A stretch of 64,000 nt of DNA. It comes from Synechococcus sp. WH 8016 (lineage in GTDB: Bacteria; Cyanobacteriota; Cyanobacteriia; PCC-6307; Cyanobiaceae). How positions within the stretch are numbered: position 1 is the stretch's first letter; each line of letters starts with the position of its first letter. The stretch is taken from positions 496,001-560,000 of the forward strand of contig NZ_AGIK01000001.1 of assembly GCF_000230675.1 (NCBI RefSeq), in the 5' to 3' direction. Both the position numbers and the translations under genes were made by a program. Below the pieces are notes generated by a model. It worked only from the letters and a program-made list of their open reading frames with translations, searched no databases and was not told where the DNA came from. Positions 35,187 to 45,968 of this stretch are shown one piece after another.

Positions 35187-36857
35187 ATGACGAAATCCTC
35201 TTCGCAGTCTGCAGGCTTCAGCCGGCGCGAAAGCCTCCAACTCGGCGCATTTTCAGTGCTTGGCCTACTTACAGCCAGTAACGCCAAGCCTGCTGATGCA
35301 GCAATGCCAGATTCCTCGACAGGACTTGCAGCAAAAAAAGGAGATGGTCATAAGTTGGTACCGGATCAAGGTGTTCGCTTAACCGACAAACCAGACAACT
35401 ATAAAACGTCGAAGTCGTTAAAGATCGACAGAGAAATCATAAACATTGGTGATATCAAGTTCAATCTCAACGGCTACGATCTTGGCAATCATATCCTCGT
35501 AATGCCTCAAAAAATGGGTGGAGGCGTCAATCTATTAGACCTGGGAACTGGCAGGGCACTGGCATCATTGTGGTATTGGAATTATGGTGATTACAATCCG
35601 ATTAGCCACCACATTCAAGCCTTTCCAAGCAATAATCCATATCAGGAATTTGAGTTTATCAATAGCTGTCAGGGAGGAATGAATTCATTGATTTACGGTA
35701 TGCCAACCTCCGTAACAGATCCACCTCCAGGATTCAATATGTACCGCGTTCGTTTCAATGGCGACGTGATGGAGCTAGAAGAAAACATCTCTGAAACAAC
35801 AGGTCTTGGGCTCGGAGTACATACAACAATTCGGCCATCAGATGCAAAAAGCTATTGCATTTCAGATGGACAAAAAGACATATTCGCCTGGTTTGATCGA
35901 GCTTCAACACGGGTCTTACAGGCTTTCCGGTATGACTGGGAAGGAAATTCCTCCGATTTAAAAGATTGCTGGACTGGTGGTGGTGTACTCAAAATCACAA
36001 GAATAAAACCCAACTCATCCACTGGATTGTTTGATCTACGTGGCACAAAAGGCATCAAAATCAATTGGGAAATGGTGCCTATGGGTGAGCTTTTTGTTCC
36101 AGAAGGAAAGATTCCTGGACCTAATGTAAAAGCCCTCACAGGAGCTGATGCTTTTGTTTGGCATCCCAGTGGAAAATGGGGAGCTGAAATTATTCGCATG
36201 CTCGGTGGTTGTGTGATTCACGATGCGGAAAATGAAATGGCTCCGGTTTCTTACTGTGCTTTCCCGAGTGAGTCTCCTGACACTTACCCTGTGACGCGAA
36301 TAGATGAAGACACATGGCAGGTTGTCATCGATCGTATTTATTCACCAGGGCATGAGCTTGGCTTTACTCCCGATGGAAATCATTTAGTAATGATGAATAA
36401 TGGTCTAGAAAATAGCGTGGGAATTTTTGATAGCTCCAATCCTGACCCTAGAGAGTGGACAAAGATCAAGCAAATTATTGATCCAACTTGGGGAAAGCGC
36501 TACCCAAGTCCGTTCCATATGGCTTTTACCCCTGACAGCAAAAAAATGTATCTTGTTGTCCTAAATCCAGCACCAGGACGAAGCGGAATCATGGTAGTTG
36601 ATACAGAAACTTGGACGCCAATTAAAGAGCTACAAAACATCACACAGGATATGCAGTCCTGCACAGTGACACCAGATGGAAAGTTTTTACTCGTTGCCGT
36701 AGGTGGCTTCCAGCGATATGCCTCCGGAGTATTTGTTCTTGATGTAGAGAAAGACGAACCCGTCGGGTTTGTCCCTAATCCTGGAGGTCATCATGACCTT
36801 ACTTTGGTGCCAACGAACGTTGATCAACTTCGTTTCTCCAGGTCCTGCGCAATGTGA
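35187..36857 (+). CDS. Tat-exported NosZ-like beta-propeller protein
   Basis: A 556-residue protein with a twin-arginine signal (FSRRESLQLGAFSVLGLLTA). The rest is a seven-bladed propeller with repeated D-G-x-x-L/Y blades: HHIQAFPSNN (141-142), VHTTIRPSD (212), GHELGFTPDGNHLVMMNNG (389), SPFHMAFTPDSKKMY (444), and GGHHDLTLVP (535-536). Spacing and context resemble the CuZ-binding propeller of nitrous oxide reductase, including a 55-residue gap between two His. One expected His position holds Ser-Cys (491-492), and the C-terminal CuA domain is missing. So it is a NosZ relative or look-alike, probably copper-binding. The stop overlaps the permease start by four bases. Confidence 0.65.
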   Translation: MTKSSSQSAGFSRRESLQLGAFSVLGLLTASNAKPADAAMPDSSTGLAAKKGDGHKLVPDQGVRLTDKPDNYKTSKSLKIDREIINIGDIKFNLNGYDLGNHILVMPQKMGGGVNLLDLGTGRALASLWYWNYGDYNPISHHIQAFPSNNPYQEFEFINSCQGGMNSLIYGMPTSVTDPPPGFNMYRVRFNGDVMELEENISETTGLGLGVHTTIRPSDAKSYCISDGQKDIFAWFDRASTRVLQAFRYDWEGNSSDLKDCWTGGGVLKITRIKPNSSTGLFDLRGTKGIKINWEMVPMGELFVPEGKIPGPNVKALTGADAFVWHPSGKWGAEIIRMLGGCVIHDAENEMAPVSYCAFPSESPDTYPVTRIDEDTWQVVIDRIYSPGHELGFTPDGNHLVMMNNGLENSVGIFDSSNPDPREWTKIKQIIDPTWGKRYPSPFHMAFTPDSKKMYLVVLNPAPGRSGIMVVDTETWTPIKELQNITQDMQSCTVTPDGKFLLVAVGGFQRYASGVFVLDVEKDEPVGFVPNPGGHHDLTLVPTNVDQLRFSRSCAM

Positions 36858-38065
36858 GCAGCATGCAAACGGCTTTAGCCGGTCTCGTTGTCAGCAATAT
36901 TTGGCGACGTCGATTTCGCTCGAGTTTATTAATGACTGCTGTAGGTCTTGTTGCGGCAATGGGCTACCTCGGCTTTATTTTGCTCGGCCAGTTGCAGCAG
37001 TCACTGGAAGTTGCTTTTGAAAGACTTGGCGCAGATTTATTAGTTGTGGACAATTCGGCTCGTGTCAATCTCACTCAAGCGCTATTGACGGTTGAGCCTG
37101 AGGCACCGCCCCTTTCAAAAGCAACCCTTGATGCGGTCCAACATCTCCCACCCTCCTTTGTTATTAGTCCACAACGCGCTGTCTTCAGTAGTACCCAGTT
37201 GGGGATGGATCTTGGCCTTAGCCATGGATCAACAGTTCCTCTGTACGGAATTGATCCCGTAAACGACACCTCCGTTCAGTCATGGCTCGAAGACCACCGC
37301 GGCATTGATTTTCAAGATGGTCAAGTCATCCTTGGGCATCGCATACGCGGTCGCCTTGGTGATCGAGTGAGACTCCAAGGACACACCTTTCAAGTGTTTG
37401 GTCGGCTGGCACCTACTGGTATCACGTCTCATGAGAACGGTGTGTTCTTCACCTTGAGCGATCTCCAGGAAATCATGCCGACGCCACAATCAAATGGTCA
37501 GGGGGTGAATGGGTTGCTTGTCCAAGCCCCTGCCAACCGCTCCATTGATGAACTGCGATTCAACCTGCTAGCTGAGCTTGACGGTGTGAAGGTTGTAGGT
37601 GGTCGAACACTCTTGTCCAAAGTTCGTCAGGGTGGGAATCTATCGCTCAAGATCATTGCCACATTCACTCTCAGCTTGTTGATCAGTGTCTTGCTGCTGA
37701 TCGGTCTTTATAGCTTTGGAATGGCATCAGAACGTCGCCAGGAACTTGGATTGCTTCTCAGCCTCGGAGCAACACCGACTCAGGTAACAGGCTTACTTTT
37801 TGGCGAAACAACTGTGCTTTGTGCCATGGGTAGTGGCATTGGTGTCAGTCTGGCCATGCTTTTGAGACCCAATCTCCAAGAATGGGTTGGCTGGAAGCTA
37901 CAAAGAGCTGATTTACCACTACTTGAACTATCCACGAAGCAACTTGTATGGCCAGCCGTTGCTGCAGCATTGATCATCACTGTGTTTGCTGCTTTTGCAT
38001 CGCTGCTCGCAACGGCAACGTTGCTGAGACGTGACCCCATATTGCTGGTGCAGAGCGATGACTGA
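36854..38065 (+). CDS. FtsX/MacB-type ABC permease
   Basis: A 403-residue permease with GTG start overlapping the propeller stop (GTGA). One N-terminal helix (LLMTAVGLVAAMGYLGFILL), a large periplasmic domain (about 60-260), then three C-terminal helices, with GMASERRQELGLLLSLGATP being the conserved FtsX cytoplasmic loop. Such permeases do mechanical work on periplasmic partners (lipoprotein release, peptide export) rather than simple import. It works with the next ATPase, overlapping it by eight bases. Confidence 0.85.
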   Translation: MSSMQTALAGLVVSNIWRRRFRSSLLMTAVGLVAAMGYLGFILLGQLQQSLEVAFERLGADLLVVDNSARVNLTQALLTVEPEAPPLSKATLDAVQHLPPSFVISPQRAVFSSTQLGMDLGLSHGSTVPLYGIDPVNDTSVQSWLEDHRGIDFQDGQVILGHRIRGRLGDRVRLQGHTFQVFGRLAPTGITSHENGVFFTLSDLQEIMPTPQSNGQGVNGLLVQAPANRSIDELRFNLLAELDGVKVVGGRTLLSKVRQGGNLSLKIIATFTLSLLISVLLLIGLYSFGMASERRQELGLLLSLGATPTQVTGLLFGETTVLCAMGSGIGVSLAMLLRPNLQEWVGWKLQRADLPLLELSTKQLVWPAVAAALIITVFAAFASLLATATLLRRDPILLVQSDD

Positions 38066-39416
38066 GTGGGTTCTACAGGCAAGTGGCCTACAACGCTTTT
38101 ACGGTCCCTCCTCAGCTCCCGTAGGTGTGATCGACGCCACAACACAAATTTGTGCCGCTGAATCAGTTGCTGTAGTAGGGCGGTCAGGGTCAGGAAAATC
38201 AACACTGATAGGGATGCTGGCTGGTCTCTGTGAGCCCCAAGCTGGCCAAGTGCTGATGATGCTCGATCGCCCCACCGATCTCTGGGCAGATCTCAACACC
38301 GGGGATCGCTGTCGCCTACGTCGTGGTCCAATCGGATTGATTAGTCAATTCACAAGCCTTCTCCCTTCATTAACAACCCTTGAAAATGTCTTGCTGCCAG
38401 CACGATTGGCAGGCCAAAGCAACGATGCCGCTCTCTTAACAACAGCACGTTATTGGCTGAATGCTGTGAGTTTGTCACATCGGCAGGACGCCTTCGCCTG
38501 TCATCTATCCGGTGGTGAGCAACGTCGCGCGATTGTGGCACGGGCTCTCATGATGACTCCTTCGCTGTTATTTGCGGATGAGCCAACCAGCAATCTTGAC
38601 GCTGAAAGTCAGGCTGAGGTTTCTAGTCTGCTCCTACAGCTTTGTAAAAGCTCTGGCACCGCCTTGGTCATCGTGACTCACAGTGATTCGCTCGCAGATT
38701 GCTGTGATCGTCGTCTCACACTTCAACAAGGCATCCTTCGTGAAGCACAGGAATCAGCAGAACGATCATCCAATCTGCAACTCCCCACTGGAATTTCACA
38801 AGAGCCCCCAGTCGCCAATCCTCAACGTCGACGTCTTCTTATCGCCACTGGTTTAGCTCTGGGATCACTTGTGATCGGAGTGGTTCAAAAATCACGCCAA
38901 CATCAACAAAATAGAAGCGAAAGACAGCTTCATGATGAGCGGATGAAAGGTCTCGCCTTTAGTGGTTTGTCAGCAGAACTCACTCACATAGAGCGAGATA
39001 ATGCAACAACATATTGCGTCACGATTGTTGTAGAGAATCTGCAGCAAGATCAATCACTATTCTTGCTTCCTTTAGATGTACAGGTATACGTGCAGCAGGA
39101 ATCGAGATGGCAACCATTCAACGCCACTTGGAATGATCGCAACCGAGGCGTGATGGAGTTGCAACATCCTGAACAACTCCAACTACAGCTTCTCGAACTT
39201 CCAGCAAGCTTCACTGAACTCGTGCCGGGATATATGCACATGCGCATCGACGTGACTTATGCAATCGCCGACCAACCAGATCCAAGAATTCCACCCGTCG
39301 AGCGTCGCGACTCCTTTTTTGTTTATCTACAACCACCCAATCCAGACGTTGAAAAGATTGCTCTCAATAATTTTCCAGAAAAAGCACCACTATTCATTCC
39401 GATGCCACCCCATTAA
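38058..39416 (+). CDS. ABC ATPase with C-terminal membrane anchor and external domain
   Basis: The first 235 residues are a LolD/MacB-like ATPase: VVGRSGSGKSTLIG, LSGGEQRRAIVARALM, LLFADEPTSNLD, VIVTHSD. A transmembrane helix (LLIATGLALGSLVIGVVQ, about 256-275) and a 170-residue mostly beta domain follow, which would lie outside the membrane. ABC ATPases rarely carry such an extension, and it would tie ATP hydrolysis directly to a periplasmic element. ATG at 38058 overlaps the permease stop. Confidence 0.82.
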   Translation: MTEWVLQASGLQRFYGPSSAPVGVIDATTQICAAESVAVVGRSGSGKSTLIGMLAGLCEPQAGQVLMMLDRPTDLWADLNTGDRCRLRRGPIGLISQFTSLLPSLTTLENVLLPARLAGQSNDAALLTTARYWLNAVSLSHRQDAFACHLSGGEQRRAIVARALMMTPSLLFADEPTSNLDAESQAEVSSLLLQLCKSSGTALVIVTHSDSLADCCDRRLTLQQGILREAQESAERSSNLQLPTGISQEPPVANPQRRRLLIATGLALGSLVIGVVQKSRQHQQNRSERQLHDERMKGLAFSGLSAELTHIERDNATTYCVTIVVENLQQDQSLFLLPLDVQVYVQQESRWQPFNATWNDRNRGVMELQHPEQLQLQLLELPASFTELVPGYMHMRIDVTYAIADQPDPRIPPVERRDSFFVYLQPPNPDVEKIALNNFPEKAPLFIPMPPH

Positions 39417-40334: not shown

Positions 40335-41933
40335 GTGCTTCGTCGATCCTTTTTGCAGTTAAGTGTGCTGGGCGCTCTCCTCGGCAGCAGCAGCCTGGAG
40401 CTGTTCAGGAAAACCCGTGCCAAAGCGCAGTCCTCCTGGGAACGGTTCATCAGCCAACCCACGTTTCAGAGGCCCCGCAATCAAGACACGGTGGTCCTGG
40501 AAATTGCAACAGCACCGATCACTGTTTTGGGGCAAACCGTGGATCGTGGCTGCATTCGCCAGCTGAATGGCCAGCGGGGGTACACCACGACGCAAGCCAA
40601 AGGCATCAATCTCGAGCTGATCAACCAATTACCGGTGCCCACAACGGTGCATTGGCATGGCTTGATTCTTCCCAATGCCATGGATGGCGTGCCATTCGTC
40701 ACGCAACCCCCGATTCCCCCAGGGAAACGCCAACGCATCCACTACCCGCTAGTGCAAAACGGCACCTTCTGGATGCATTCGCACTACGGCCTGCAAACCC
40801 AAAGCTATGTCGCTGAGCCGTTTGTGATTCTCGATGAGAAACAAGAGCCTTGGGCTGATCGCACGATCAGCGTGATGCTTCGGGACTTCAGCTTCACGCC
40901 CGCCAGCCAAATCCTCAACAACGTGGTGGCTGGAGAGCGCGGTGGTGGCACGGCCATGGCCAAAAGCTTGGCTGATTTCGCTTGGCATCAACCTCGAACG
41001 CTGCTCACCCAGCAATGGGATCCAGCGACGCAACGCTTCGGGAGGAAACAAGAAAAGGGGGTTTTGATGATGGCCCCCGATGTTGTGTACGACGCGCTGC
41101 TGGCGAATGAACGCAGCCTCGATGCTCCAGAGATCATTGATGTAGAGCCTGGCGAAACCGTGGCGATCCGCTGGGTTGCCGGCAGCGCCTTCATGAGCTT
41201 TTTCCTTGACCTTGGCGATCTCGAAGGAGAGCTGCTGCGCACCGATGCCAATCCCGTGGAGCCGATCCGCGGCTCCCTGTTTCAACTCGCTCTGGCTCAA
41301 CGTTTAACGCTGCGCATCAAGGTTCCAGAAGAACCTGGGGTGTTTCCATTGTTGGCCTTAGGGGAACGCAGCAACCAGCGCTGTGGCGTGGTGCTGCGCA
41401 GCAACCCGAAGCTCAGCGTGCCCGATTTGGCGCCGCAAACCGATCAGTGGACCGGAAGCCTCGATTTCACCCAGGACAAGCAACTGCGGGCAACAAATCC
41501 CCTCGCTGCTCGTGCTGCTGACAACACAATCCCCGTGGCCCTCACCGGCCCTGCTCCCAAATACACCTGGGGACTGAACGATCGTTTTTACCCTTACTGC
41601 GATCCCTACTGGGTGGAGCAGGGCCAACGGGTGGAGATGGTGTTTTCCAATCCCACCCCGATGGGGCATCCCATGCATCTGCATGGCCATGAATTCCAAA
41701 TCCTCGAAATCGATGGCAAGCCCTTGGACGGCCCCATGCGCGACACCGTCTACGTCCCCAAAGGGAGCACCTGCCGCATTGCCTTTGATGCCAACAACCC
41801 AGGCATTTGGGCCTTCCACTGCCATATCGCTTATCACCATGTGCGCGGCATGTTCAATGTGGTGGCTTACCGCTCAGCTGATCTGAGCTGGTGGGATCCA
41901 AGTGGCTTTGGCCATGAATACCTGCCGTTCTGA
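40335..41933 (+). CDS. Multicopper oxidase, CueO-like
   Basis: A 532-residue laccase-type oxidase with Tat-like start (GTG; LRRSFLQLSVLGALLGSSSL). All copper motifs are present: HWHG (106-109), HSHYG (148-152), a HPMHLHGHEF motif near residue 445, and FHCHIAYHHVRGM (495-506) with Cys and axial Met for the type-1 copper. It oxidises Cu(I) or organic substrates in the periplasm. No Met-rich copper loop is seen. Near the SMR pair and the propeller operon; part of the window's copper theme. Confidence 0.92.
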   Translation: MLRRSFLQLSVLGALLGSSSLELFRKTRAKAQSSWERFISQPTFQRPRNQDTVVLEIATAPITVLGQTVDRGCIRQLNGQRGYTTTQAKGINLELINQLPVPTTVHWHGLILPNAMDGVPFVTQPPIPPGKRQRIHYPLVQNGTFWMHSHYGLQTQSYVAEPFVILDEKQEPWADRTISVMLRDFSFTPASQILNNVVAGERGGGTAMAKSLADFAWHQPRTLLTQQWDPATQRFGRKQEKGVLMMAPDVVYDALLANERSLDAPEIIDVEPGETVAIRWVAGSAFMSFFLDLGDLEGELLRTDANPVEPIRGSLFQLALAQRLTLRIKVPEEPGVFPLLALGERSNQRCGVVLRSNPKLSVPDLAPQTDQWTGSLDFTQDKQLRATNPLAARAADNTIPVALTGPAPKYTWGLNDRFYPYCDPYWVEQGQRVEMVFSNPTPMGHPMHLHGHEFQILEIDGKPLDGPMRDTVYVPKGSTCRIAFDANNPGIWAFHCHIAYHHVRGMFNVVAYRSADLSWWDPSGFGHEYLPF

Positions 41934-43092: not shown

Positions 43093-44799
43093 TTAGGAAG
43101 GGGAAGTTGAATGGGGTGTTGCTGTCTTGTGGATGGTTTCAATCACCTCCTCCGCCAGGGGCTGACTTTCCTCCGCAGGAATCAGCACCTCGAGGTAGGC
43201 AGCCCCCTGATGGGCATTGATCTCGGCAAAGGCCTGTTCCAGTTCCGCCAGGGTGCTCACCCGCCCGCACCACCAGCCATCGCATCCAAGAGCAGCCGGA
43301 AGATCTGCGTAGCGCCAGGCGGGCAAATTGTTGTAGGCGTGCCCCGTTTCACTGATCAACGCCTCCACCCCGAACAGGCCATTGTTCAAAACGATCACCA
43401 CCGGATTCACCCCCGTGTATCCCATCACCCCGATCTCCTGCATCGTGAGCTGGTGAGCGCCATCACCTGTCACCAGAACAACGCGGCGCTCCGGGTCCGC
43501 CAAGGCGCACCCCAAGGCCGCCGGGGTGCCCCATCCAATCGATCCCCAGAGGGTTTGGCTTTCCATCGCCACGCCAGCGGGTAGTCGTAGGGCATTGAGC
43601 TTGAGCAGGCATGTGCCGGTATCCGACACCAAGAGGTCGCTAGAGCGCAGGAATTGCTGCAAGCGGGGGTAAAAGCTCGCTGAACTTGTGGGCTGATCAA
43701 CGGTTCCGCTCAGGGGAAGTAGCGAAGCGGGCTGGGTTGGACGATGCTCACCCGCATAGGACAAGCGCTTCGAGGCATCCTGAAAACGCCTGGTTAACCC
43801 CGCCAAGACATCGCTGATGCTCACACTCGTGAACACCTGGTCACCGGCCTGCACCCAGTCGGCATGCAACGCAACGATCCGGCGGGGATCAAGGGAGCCA
43901 CTCCAAAGTCCTGTGTTGAGATCTTCGAGCACCAATCCCCCCAGATCGATCAGCAGATCGGCGTCTTCCACCACGCTGCGCAAAGCCGCAGGCGTTGACC
44001 GTGCGCCGTTGTACATCCCAAGGAAAGCGGGGTGCTCCTCACTCAGAAGCGCCTTGTCCATCGGCGTGGTGGCATAGGCCAGACCGGAAGACTTGAGGAA
44101 AGCCTCGAATGCATGGATCAGACCGAAACGCTTCAAGGTGACGGTGGGAAGAACCACGGGTCTGGATGCGGCGGCAATCCGTGCCATTAGGAGATCAAGC
44201 ACAGCCTCCAGTTCGCCAGCAACACTGTCGTGTTGATCGATCACACCAAGCGGTGATCCCTGGATCGGCGTACCGGTGATCGGCATCAGAGCCAGATCCA
44301 TCGGAAAGGTGAGATAAGCAGGCCTGGATTCCTCCAGCGCCTTATCAATCACGCGCTCCAGTTCAATCACGGCATTTTCGGGCGTGAGCCTGGCGCTCAC
44401 ACAACTTGCCGAGGCGGAGATGGCCTCAAAGCGGTCGTAGTTGCGATCGCCAAGGGTGTGATGACAGATCAGTCCCTGGCGCACGATCCGCAGACTTGGC
44501 GTACCCACCAGATGAAACACGGGCAGCCGCTCAGCCATCGCTCCCATCAGGCCATTGAGCGCACTGAGTTCACCCACGCCATAGGTGGTGCAAACGATGC
44601 CAGCCCCACCGCGGCGAGCGTAGCCATCGGCTGCATAGGCCGCATTCAGTTCATTCGCTGAGGGCACCCACTGCAGCCGCGGGTGCACTTCCACTGCATC
44701 GTTGATGGGAAAGGCGTAGTCACCCGGCACACCAAACACATGGCCGATCCCGAGATCGGCAAGACGATCCAGGGCATAAGTCACAACGGAAGGAGTCAT
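43093..44799 (-). CDS. Pyruvate/indolepyruvate decarboxylase-like ThDP enzyme
   Basis: From ATG 44799 (GVPGDYAFPINDAV follows the usual start) the enzyme has about 568 residues. The catalytic Glu lies in ANELNAAYAADGYAR, and the ThDP-Mg motif is GDGAHQLTMQEIGVMGYTG, ending LNNGLFG. The length and order match pyruvate decarboxylase and indolepyruvate decarboxylase: 2-oxoacid to aldehyde plus CO2. Earlier in-frame starts at 44856 and 44901 exist. It overlaps or abuts ackA, suggesting a route from sugar phosphate and pyruvate to acetate and aldehyde. Confidence 0.88.
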   Translation of the reverse strand: MTPSVVTYALDRLADLGIGHVFGVPGDYAFPINDAVEVHPRLQWVPSANELNAAYAADGYARRGGAGIVCTTYGVGELSALNGLMGAMAERLPVFHLVGTPSLRIVRQGLICHHTLGDRNYDRFEAISASASCVSARLTPENAVIELERVIDKALEESRPAYLTFPMDLALMPITGTPIQGSPLGVIDQHDSVAGELEAVLDLLMARIAAASRPVVLPTVTLKRFGLIHAFEAFLKSSGLAYATTPMDKALLSEEHPAFLGMYNGARSTPAALRSVVEDADLLIDLGGLVLEDLNTGLWSGSLDPRRIVALHADWVQAGDQVFTSVSISDVLAGLTRRFQDASKRLSYAGEHRPTQPASLLPLSGTVDQPTSSASFYPRLQQFLRSSDLLVSDTGTCLLKLNALRLPAGVAMESQTLWGSIGWGTPAALGCALADPERRVVLVTGDGAHQLTMQEIGVMGYTGVNPVVIVLNNGLFGVEALISETGHAYNNLPAWRYADLPAALGCDGWWCGRVSTLAELEQAFAEINAHQGAAYLEVLIPAEESQPLAEEVIETIHKTATPHSTSPS

Positions 44800-44897
44800 C
44801 AAACCGGGATTGCAGATTAATAGCTGATTTTGATCGCAATCATCACCTGAAGCCATACGACACCCAGAGATCTGCAGCGAACGGTGCCTTGAGTTCC

Positions 44898-45968
44898 TCA
44901 ATCAGTCGCTGTCAACGAAAACTGGTGGCGCAAGCAGAGGCGAGCAATCATCCCTTCTTCGTCTGCTGGTACCACAACAGTTTCAAACGCTCCCCACCAA
45001 TTAAGTGATTCATGCAGCTCAATGCGAAGAGCTTCGTCGTGTTCACCGATGCCACCGGTGAGGGCGAGAACATCCACTCCTTGCAGGCTTGCAGCCATGG
45101 CTCCGAGCTGTTGCAATAGCCGGTGTCGAAACACGGCAAGGGCCAGTAGAGCACCGGGATGGGCTTCCAGGGCCAACTCACGGATTTCGCGCATGTCTCC
45201 GCTGAGACCGGATAGTCCCTTGAGCCCTGACTCGTTCTGCAGTGAGTGGCTGAGTTCTGTTGCGCCATATCCTTGTCGGATCAATTCGAGGATCAGTCCG
45301 GGATCAACACTCCCTGAACGCGTTTCCATAACGAGTCCCTCCATTGGAGTGAAGCCCATAGTGGTGTCGATGCAGATGCCACCCTTTACCGCTGCAAGCG
45401 ACGCTCCTGCACCAAGATGAGCACTGATCAACCGAAGCTGAGACGGGTCACATCCCTTAGTACGCCAGTAATCGGCAACATATTCGGAGACGTACTGATG
45501 GTTGATGCCATGGAAGCCGTAGCGATGAAGTCCCTTGTCGCGAAGCTTCTGCGGGATCGCATAGGTGCTTGCAGCCGTAGGTAATGTGCGGTGGAAAGCT
45601 GTGTCAAAGCATGCCCATTGCGGGCAATCAGGCACCAAGCGCTGGGTCCAGGCAAGTCCAGCAAGAGCCGGTGGCTGATGCAAGGGGGCCAGAGGGATGA
45701 GCATCTGGAGTGCATGCTCTAACTGCGGTGTGATCAGCGTTGGAGAAGTGAAGTCCTCACCGCCATGCACCACCCTGTGACCGATGAGCTGAATCTGATG
45801 GCGATGACGCTCAACAACTGGAGTCAGCCACTGATTCAAGACTGTGCTGACGGACTCCCCTGTACTTCGCTTGCGATTGCAACACCAAACTTTAGCTCCC
45901 GTGGAATCCACCAGGGAAACCTTGAAACTGGAACTACCGAGATTGATCACAAGGACGAGGCCTGTCAT
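44898..45968 (-). CDS. ackA: Acetate kinase
   Basis: A 356-residue acetate kinase, shorter than the usual 390-400. Motifs: VINLGSSSFKVSL (phosphate loop), GHRVVHGG, WACFDTAFHRTLP, YGFHGINHQYV, HLGAGASLAAV, DTTMGFTPMEGLVMETRSGS and LTGGIGEHD. It turns acetyl phosphate plus ADP into acetate plus ATP. Immediately downstream of phosphoketolase on the same strand (108 bases), it completes the phosphoketolase-acetate bypass. Confidence 0.93.
   Translation of the reverse strand: MTGLVLVINLGSSSFKVSLVDSTGAKVWCCNRKRSTGESVSTVLNQWLTPVVERHRHQIQLIGHRVVHGGEDFTSPTLITPQLEHALQMLIPLAPLHQPPALAGLAWTQRLVPDCPQWACFDTAFHRTLPTAASTYAIPQKLRDKGLHRYGFHGINHQYVSEYVADYWRTKGCDPSQLRLISAHLGAGASLAAVKGGICIDTTMGFTPMEGLVMETRSGSVDPGLILELIRQGYGATELSHSLQNESGLKGLSGLSGDMREIRELALEAHPGALLALAVFRHRLLQQLGAMAASLQGVDVLALTGGIGEHDEALRIELHESLNWWGAFETVVVPADEEGMIARLCLRHQFSLTATD

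Follow-up and report, generated by a model that had tools for sequence, protein, structure and literature searches.

The nitrous oxide reductase NosZ, a copper propeller exported by twin-arginine translocation (Tat), has beside it an ATP-binding cassette (ABC) machine and a periplasmic copper protein (NosDFY/NosL). NosL is an assembly factor of the CuZ site (PMC6530538). Closer to the system described here is thiocyanate dehydrogenase (TcDH; EC 1.8.2.7). Passages of two papers report that downstream of the TcDH gene of Thioalkalivibrio come two permease/ATPase pairs and a gene for a hypothetical protein anchored by one helix, and that the ABC genes and the anchored protein are induced with TcDH on thiocyanate (PMC5328954, PMC5744179). 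Copper uptake was suggested for these ABC genes; the passages of PMC5744179 report no copper motifs in them and leave their role open. There, the copper supply of TcDH was an unanswered question in 2017, and we have seen no later answer in the open literature. Here we analyze a three-gene operon in a 64,000-nucleotide stretch of Synechococcus sp. WH 8016 (contig NZ_AGIK01000001.1, positions 496,001 to 560,000; hereafter the window). Its first gene encodes a propeller of a TcDH sister clade, and the operon as a whole probably combines a remodeled copper site with a dedicated machine for assembling the copper center.

The list of open reading frames and the sequence place all three genes on the plus strand, each overlapping the next: the propeller gene at 35187-36857, a permease gene at 36854-38065 (GTG start at 36854; overlap of 4 bases), and an ATPase gene at 38058-39416 (ATG start at 38058; overlap of 8 bases). 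A first-pass annotation of this DNA had read these overlaps as a tightly coupled operon whose propeller is exported by Tat, and both statements hold; the Ser-Arg-Arg of the twin-arginine signal lies at residues 12-14 (35220-35228), with Arg13 and Arg14 present in 96% of 50 aligned rows. Some alphaproteobacterial propellers (L010, L013, and L028; G and L numbers denote genomes and loci of our set) have up to ∼90 extra residues before the twin-arginine motif when read from the first in-frame start, and this stretch is perhaps an uncleaved anchor.

Single-sequence family scans of the propeller (Pfam and NCBIfam) returned almost nothing. A profile built from 24 propeller relatives (A1) matched TcDH along the whole propeller, with E values of 1e-174 to 1e-190. 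Structure models were made of the propeller and of the C-terminal domain of the ATPase, each as a single chain. The AlphaFold2 model of the propeller (mean predicted local distance difference test score, pLDDT, 74.6) aligned to TcDH with Z scores of 49-51 (2.3-2.5 Å over 442-447 residues, 40-45% identity), whereas the next-best fold reached 32.6; Foldseek gave E values of 9e-55 to 5e-49 and a template modeling (TM) score of 0.90 by target length. The window propeller is 44% identical to the TcDH of Thioalkalivibrio paradoxus and 46% identical to that of Pelomicrobium methylotrophicum, and all three are full-length seven-bladed propellers with a Tat signal. We conclude that TcDH is the sole strong relative and that the propeller belongs to a TcDH sister clade.

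The seven His residues singled out by the first-pass annotation (141, 142, 212, 389, 444, 535, and 536) are present and are conserved in 50/50 full-length rows (two genomes appear twice, and L047, L048, L051, and L053 are left out); by position mapping, their pattern is that of thiocyanate dehydrogenase. The Fig. 4 legend, one of the passages seen of PMC6504805, lists 13 active-site residues of the T. paradoxus enzyme, and 12 of them are identical in the window propeller. TcDH His135, His136, His206, His381, His437, and His528 correspond to His141, His142, His212, His389, His444, and His536, and Lys103, Gln156, Glu288, Asp314, Asp529, and Arg544 correspond to Lys109, Gln162, Glu295, Asp321, Asp537, and Arg552. 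Three further positions were mapped: Lys281 and Phe436 are unchanged, and Ser takes the place of Thr169. The full His set is incomplete in one place, where the TcDH copper ligand His482 is replaced by Gln490 (CAG codon at 36654-36656). Across the alignment this position holds Gln in 54 rows (a count that includes two repeated genomes), His in three, and a gap in one; the three His rows are from Nitrospirota, and both TcDH structures in the PDB also have His. The PDB holds engineered mutants at this residue as well, judging by the entry titles: H482Q (6sji) and H447Q (8yu5 and 8yu6). Because all of the TcDH active-site His residues but one are conserved, together with Lys, Glu, Asp, and Arg, we infer a multicopper site in the propeller tunnel. 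The copper-enzyme type that the first-pass annotation proposed agrees with the profile and fold matches to TcDH, from which copper itself is predicted. Met296, Met299, and Glu390, all fixed in the clade that carries Gln at this place (the Gln clade), are candidate copper ligands.

After removal of rows at least 97% alike, 37 rows entered a maximum-likelihood tree, in which a single branch with 100/100 support parts the 32 Gln rows from the 5 His rows; the tree has several long branches, and the tool gave a warning on their joins. At nine TcDH positions, 49 Gln rows differ with no overlap from the 5 His rows (V153N, L289M, G292M, A312G, Q382E, W452L, N459S, H482Q, and K/N502R; L047, L048, L051, L053, and the duplicates L004 and L005 are not counted). 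The Gln rows show no variation at any of the nine, the His rows vary at 153 and 502, and Q382 adjoins His381. As H482Q is one of the nine fixed differences, the lost ligand goes together with the new Met and Glu residues. Gln is fixed across Cyanobacteria, Pseudomonadota, Verrucomicrobia, and one Nitrospirota genome. Between G034 and G075, the ratio of nonsynonymous to synonymous substitution rates was 0.031 for the propeller, 0.143 for the permease, and 0.181 for the ATPase; pairs with the window had saturated synonymous sites. The propeller is under strong purifying selection. Relative to five other cyanobacterial loci, the window enzyme is 82-89% identical and the transporter 50-59% identical; the enzyme evolves far more slowly.

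The permease has FtsX and MacB_PCD Pfam matches above their cut-offs, as the first-pass annotation expected, and is not of the NosY type; hydropathy indicates four hydrophobic segments and a large periplasmic domain. Among 53 permeases, the positions at or above 93% conservation include no His, Met, or Cys, and a role as copper channel was rejected on this ground. The ATPase has the Walker A, signature, Walker B, and H-loop motifs and resembles LolD, scoring 171 bits against an equivalog cut-off of 308. The added anchor and outer domain that the first-pass annotation described were also found, as a hydrophobic segment at about residues 260-278 (38835-38891; predicted to span the membrane by a Kyte-Doolittle scan) followed by the C-terminal domain (C-domain; 38910-39413). 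MacB and LolCDE machines are alike in their permease and ATPase families and in the four hydrophobic segments; they differ in that the ATPase of this operon has its own membrane anchor and periplasmic domain and that a copper-type propeller adjoins. The C-domain model (pLDDT 93.7) is an immunoglobulin (Ig)-like β-sandwich. We found no Pfam match over the cut-off and no sequence relative in the PDB for this domain, and fold comparison, also used to check for a partner of the NosL or NosD type, returned generic β-sandwiches (best Z, 8.5). The C-domain was accordingly not assigned to a known copper protein, although a known copper fold is still compatible with these matches. Exactly at the stop codon, all 45 untruncated copies end in Met-Pro-x-His (x being Pro in 39, Ala in 4, and Ser in 2), and His394 is likewise invariant in 45/45; C-domains that were truncated or undetected are left out of this count. 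In the window the tail is Met-Pro-Pro-His (39402-39413), which we propose as copper donating. The same ending occurs in three further sequences, one from Methylocella and two more from Nitrospirota. Alphaproteobacteria encode the C-domain as a protein of its own, anchored at its N terminus (e.g., L010:11450-12316), whereas 11 of the 40 distinct loci, those of cyanobacteria, Verrucomicrobia, and L067, have it fused to the ATPase.

The order propeller, permease, ATPase, C-domain is kept in 40/41 distinct Gln-clade loci, the exception being L039. This count covers loci with at least 3.6 kb of downstream sequence (42/43 before removal of L070 and L071, repeats of L007 and L008). The propeller gene was found in 5/200 genomes of the window's order, including the window's own, and the C-domain in just the same five. 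Other searches, made with the A1 profile at an E value of 1e-20, found the propeller gene in 2/398 Pseudomonadota, 2/292 Cyanobacteria, 1/240 genomes of the class of G391, 4/198 Nitrospirota, and 1/194 Verrucomicrobia, each of these counts including its center genome, itself a carrier. The window's genome (2.69 Mb, 16 contigs) has as its nearest named relatives a metagenome-assembled genome labeled TMED88, Synechococcus sp. CS-1325, and a Cyanobium. The G+C content at third codon positions is 0.40 in the propeller gene; in six measured neighbors it is 0.65-0.70 for four and 0.48 and 0.55 for the remaining two. This low value, together with the 5/200 occurrence, suggests that the propeller gene was acquired horizontally. 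In two Methylocella tundrae plasmid records the propeller is entered as a hypothetical protein, and its neighbors are an ABC permease, an ATPase, and a further hypothetical protein.

As in Thioalkalivibrio, a permease and an ATPase gene lie directly downstream of the enzyme gene, a plan that is not universal among TcDH. Thioalkalivibrio has two permease/ATPase pairs; here there is one, whose ATPase carries the anchored domain as a fusion. The Nitrospirota locus L066, where the tailed protein stands with a His-type TcDH, resembles the Thioalkalivibrio plan and has the Met-Pro-Pro-His tail, and we liken the Thioalkalivibrio anchored protein to the tailed one by cluster plan. Two more genomes of Nitrospirota also have the tailed protein, on contigs that break off there; like the locus L066, they favor the machine proposed below. 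The domain with the Met-Pro-x-His tail may be a copper-binding part of Thioalkalivibrio-type machinery. To NosDFY/NosL the likeness is one of working mode and by analogy, with an FtsX/MacB-type permease and a C-domain lacking a Pfam match over the cut-off as the differences. The first-pass annotation had called this an undescribed system. TcDH with ABC neighbors has been published for Thioalkalivibrio, as the passages of PMC5328954 and PMC5744179 show, and that part of the claim does not stand; in the open literature searched we met neither the Gln clade nor the tailed protein. Gln rows may appear in PMC6504805, which by its accessible passages aligned in a figure TcDH homologs above 30% identity. 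Papers that name both TcDH and cyanobacteria do not, in the passages found, speak of TcDH in cyanobacteria.

We propose that the propeller is the catalytic subunit, exported folded by Tat, with a multicopper center in its tunnel that would be remodeled by Gln490 in place of His482. Its substrate, most likely thiocyanate or else a small sulfur or nitrogen anion much like it, would be oxidized by two electrons, which would be handed to a periplasmic cytochrome c or plastocyanin. The permease and ATPase would form a MacB/Lol-type ABC machine driving maturation from the membrane: ATP hydrolysis would move the anchored Ig-like domain, which would present Cu to the propeller through its Met-Pro-x-His tail and His394, much as NosDFY/NosL serve NosZ. 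We assign copper loading to the ABC proteins and the C-domain because of the co-occurrence, the fusion, the tail, and a permease with no conserved metal ligands, and the maturation machine suggested by the first-pass annotation is a plausible role. A bolder form of this proposal, advanced tentatively and with more doubt than belief, is that the Gln clade represents a separate copper enzyme whose center is of a new type (His482 lost, Met and Glu ligands gained) and which acts on a substrate of its own in picocyanobacteria of marine and fresh waters and in soil bacteria, and that the ABC-plus-tail unit is a new assembly machine, common to canonical TcDH, that pushes its Met-Pro-x-His tail into the tunnel.

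Several observations weigh against this proposal. A Gln-type propeller occurs in L039 (genome G201) with no adjacent ABC genes and no C-domain in the genome. The Nitrospirota overlap is loose, with the propeller in 4/198 genomes, the C-domain in 3/198, and only two genomes common to both; contig ends may be the cause for G1187, where a contig with a C-domain pair ends at the ATPase, and for G1241, where propeller and permease lie at a contig end with no C-domain match, though not clearly for G201. His-type Nitrospirota clusters hold a second C-domain paralog without the tail beside the tailed one; L066 alone has both on one contig with TcDH. The propeller model is weak at residues 292-310, which include Met299. 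The passages of PMC6504805 place Cus copper genes in the TcDH neighborhood of Thiohalobacter and Guyparkeria and mention no ABC pair of this kind. Among the scanned neighbors of Gln-type copies we did not see the CopCD, flavocytochrome c, and sigma-54 genes known from Thioalkalivibrio clusters, though no search was aimed at them; in Methylocella a sigma-54 regulator lies about 14 kb away. Finally, cyanase is present in 20/21 congeners (18/19 of those without the operon) and absent from the carriers G119 and G164; cyanase does not track the operon and was rejected as a partner.

How far the altered site departs from TcDH can be read in more than one way. That the clade consists of ordinary TcDH, with the same tri-copper chemistry that turns thiocyanate into cyanate and sulfur and with Gln490 (or Met299/Glu390) substituting for His482, has a real if minor share of the probability: the other 12 active-site residues are retained, the fold is the same, and the cyanase of some carriers, the window's genome among them, could use the cyanate. 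However, His-to-Gln mutants were made exactly here in both solved TcDH, which implies that His is the rule in TcDH, the nine separating substitutions and the fully supported split look like altered function, and two cyanobacterial carriers lack cyanase. Loss of one copper ligand and the patchy occurrence in the order could instead point to a catalytically dead propeller that binds or senses after losing its activity with His482. We regard this as quite unlikely, given that the other ligands and the catalytic Lys, Glu, and Asp are retained, selection is strongly purifying, and the operon with its ABC genes is preserved across phyla.

The ABC genes allow a separate question. Their MacB/Lol-like families, and the lack of copper motifs reported for the Thioalkalivibrio ABC genes in the passages of PMC5744179, would suit the export or handling of a sulfur product or other ligand with no part in copper loading; we hold this somewhat improbable, since the C-domain has its tail and His394 in 45/45 copies, the permease has no such residue, and in the window's order the C-domain is found only with the propeller. 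The first-pass annotation had seen in the propeller a relative of NosZ. Its seven invariant His residues and a weak match to L-NosZ (NF052460; residues 394-542), shared by 8/24 A1 members including the window's, could indicate a nitrous oxide reductase-type enzyme with a CuZ-like site, possibly of the lactonase type. This is the least credible of the readings, barely worth entertaining: the L-NosZ match scores 17.3 bits against a curated cut-off of 700, NosZ itself (1fwx) lies far down the structural list with a TM score of about 0.42 at 11% identity against 0.90 for TcDH, and the Pfam scan of the propeller returned neither a CuA domain nor a NosZ family match. The absence of CuA and the judgment that this is not a standard nos operon, with no NosY-type permease, CuA, or NosZ family member, were correct in the first-pass annotation; nor did the propeller fall into an ordinary nonmetal WD/YVTN family with scattered His residues. 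Readings as NosZ, L-NosZ, lactonase, WD40 protein, or hydrazine synthase were rejected, the matches being only weak and partial.

Other genes lie nearby. Downstream of the operon, 40335-41933 encodes a CopA/CueO-like multicopper oxidase with a twin-arginine start; it is also near the operon in G034 (L068, 82.5% identical) and was not found in L006, L007, L008, or L069, and with one of five other cyanobacterial loci having it, we rejected it as part of the system. A family of ∼100-residue proteins lies near the propeller in 10 loci from alphaproteobacteria, Verrucomicrobia, and L067 (with 50-67% identity from group to group; e.g., L010:6465-6773, L043:2777-3163 on the minus strand, and L067:9520-9831 on the minus strand), with no Pfam or NCBIfam match in the two copies scanned. 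A protein that weakly matches DnaJ, below the cut-off, adjoins the propeller at L081:13755-14477 and in 33/34 alphaproteobacterial loci, its gene being divergent from the propeller in most and codirectional in L022 and L081. An indolepyruvate decarboxylase-like thiamine enzyme is found beside the propeller in G034 (L068:11876-13735) and G075 (L069:5796-7550), ∼6 kb from it in the window (43093-44901, minus strand), and 5 kb from it in Verrucomicrobia (L052:9729-11396). Directly after the ATPase fusion of another Verrucomicrobia locus comes a protein that weakly matches AhpC/TSA, below the cut-off (L041:12036-12707), and the operon of G075 is followed by an AcrB-type resistance-nodulation-division efflux gene read as two open frames (L069:13094-16198).

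The TcDH-type fold extends to photosynthetic picocyanobacteria and soil bacteria. Their Gln clade carries a naturally altered version of the predicted copper site, with the same change that structural biologists have made on purpose in their mutants, and the operon narrows the question of how TcDH is loaded with copper to a single ABC pair and a single tail motif.

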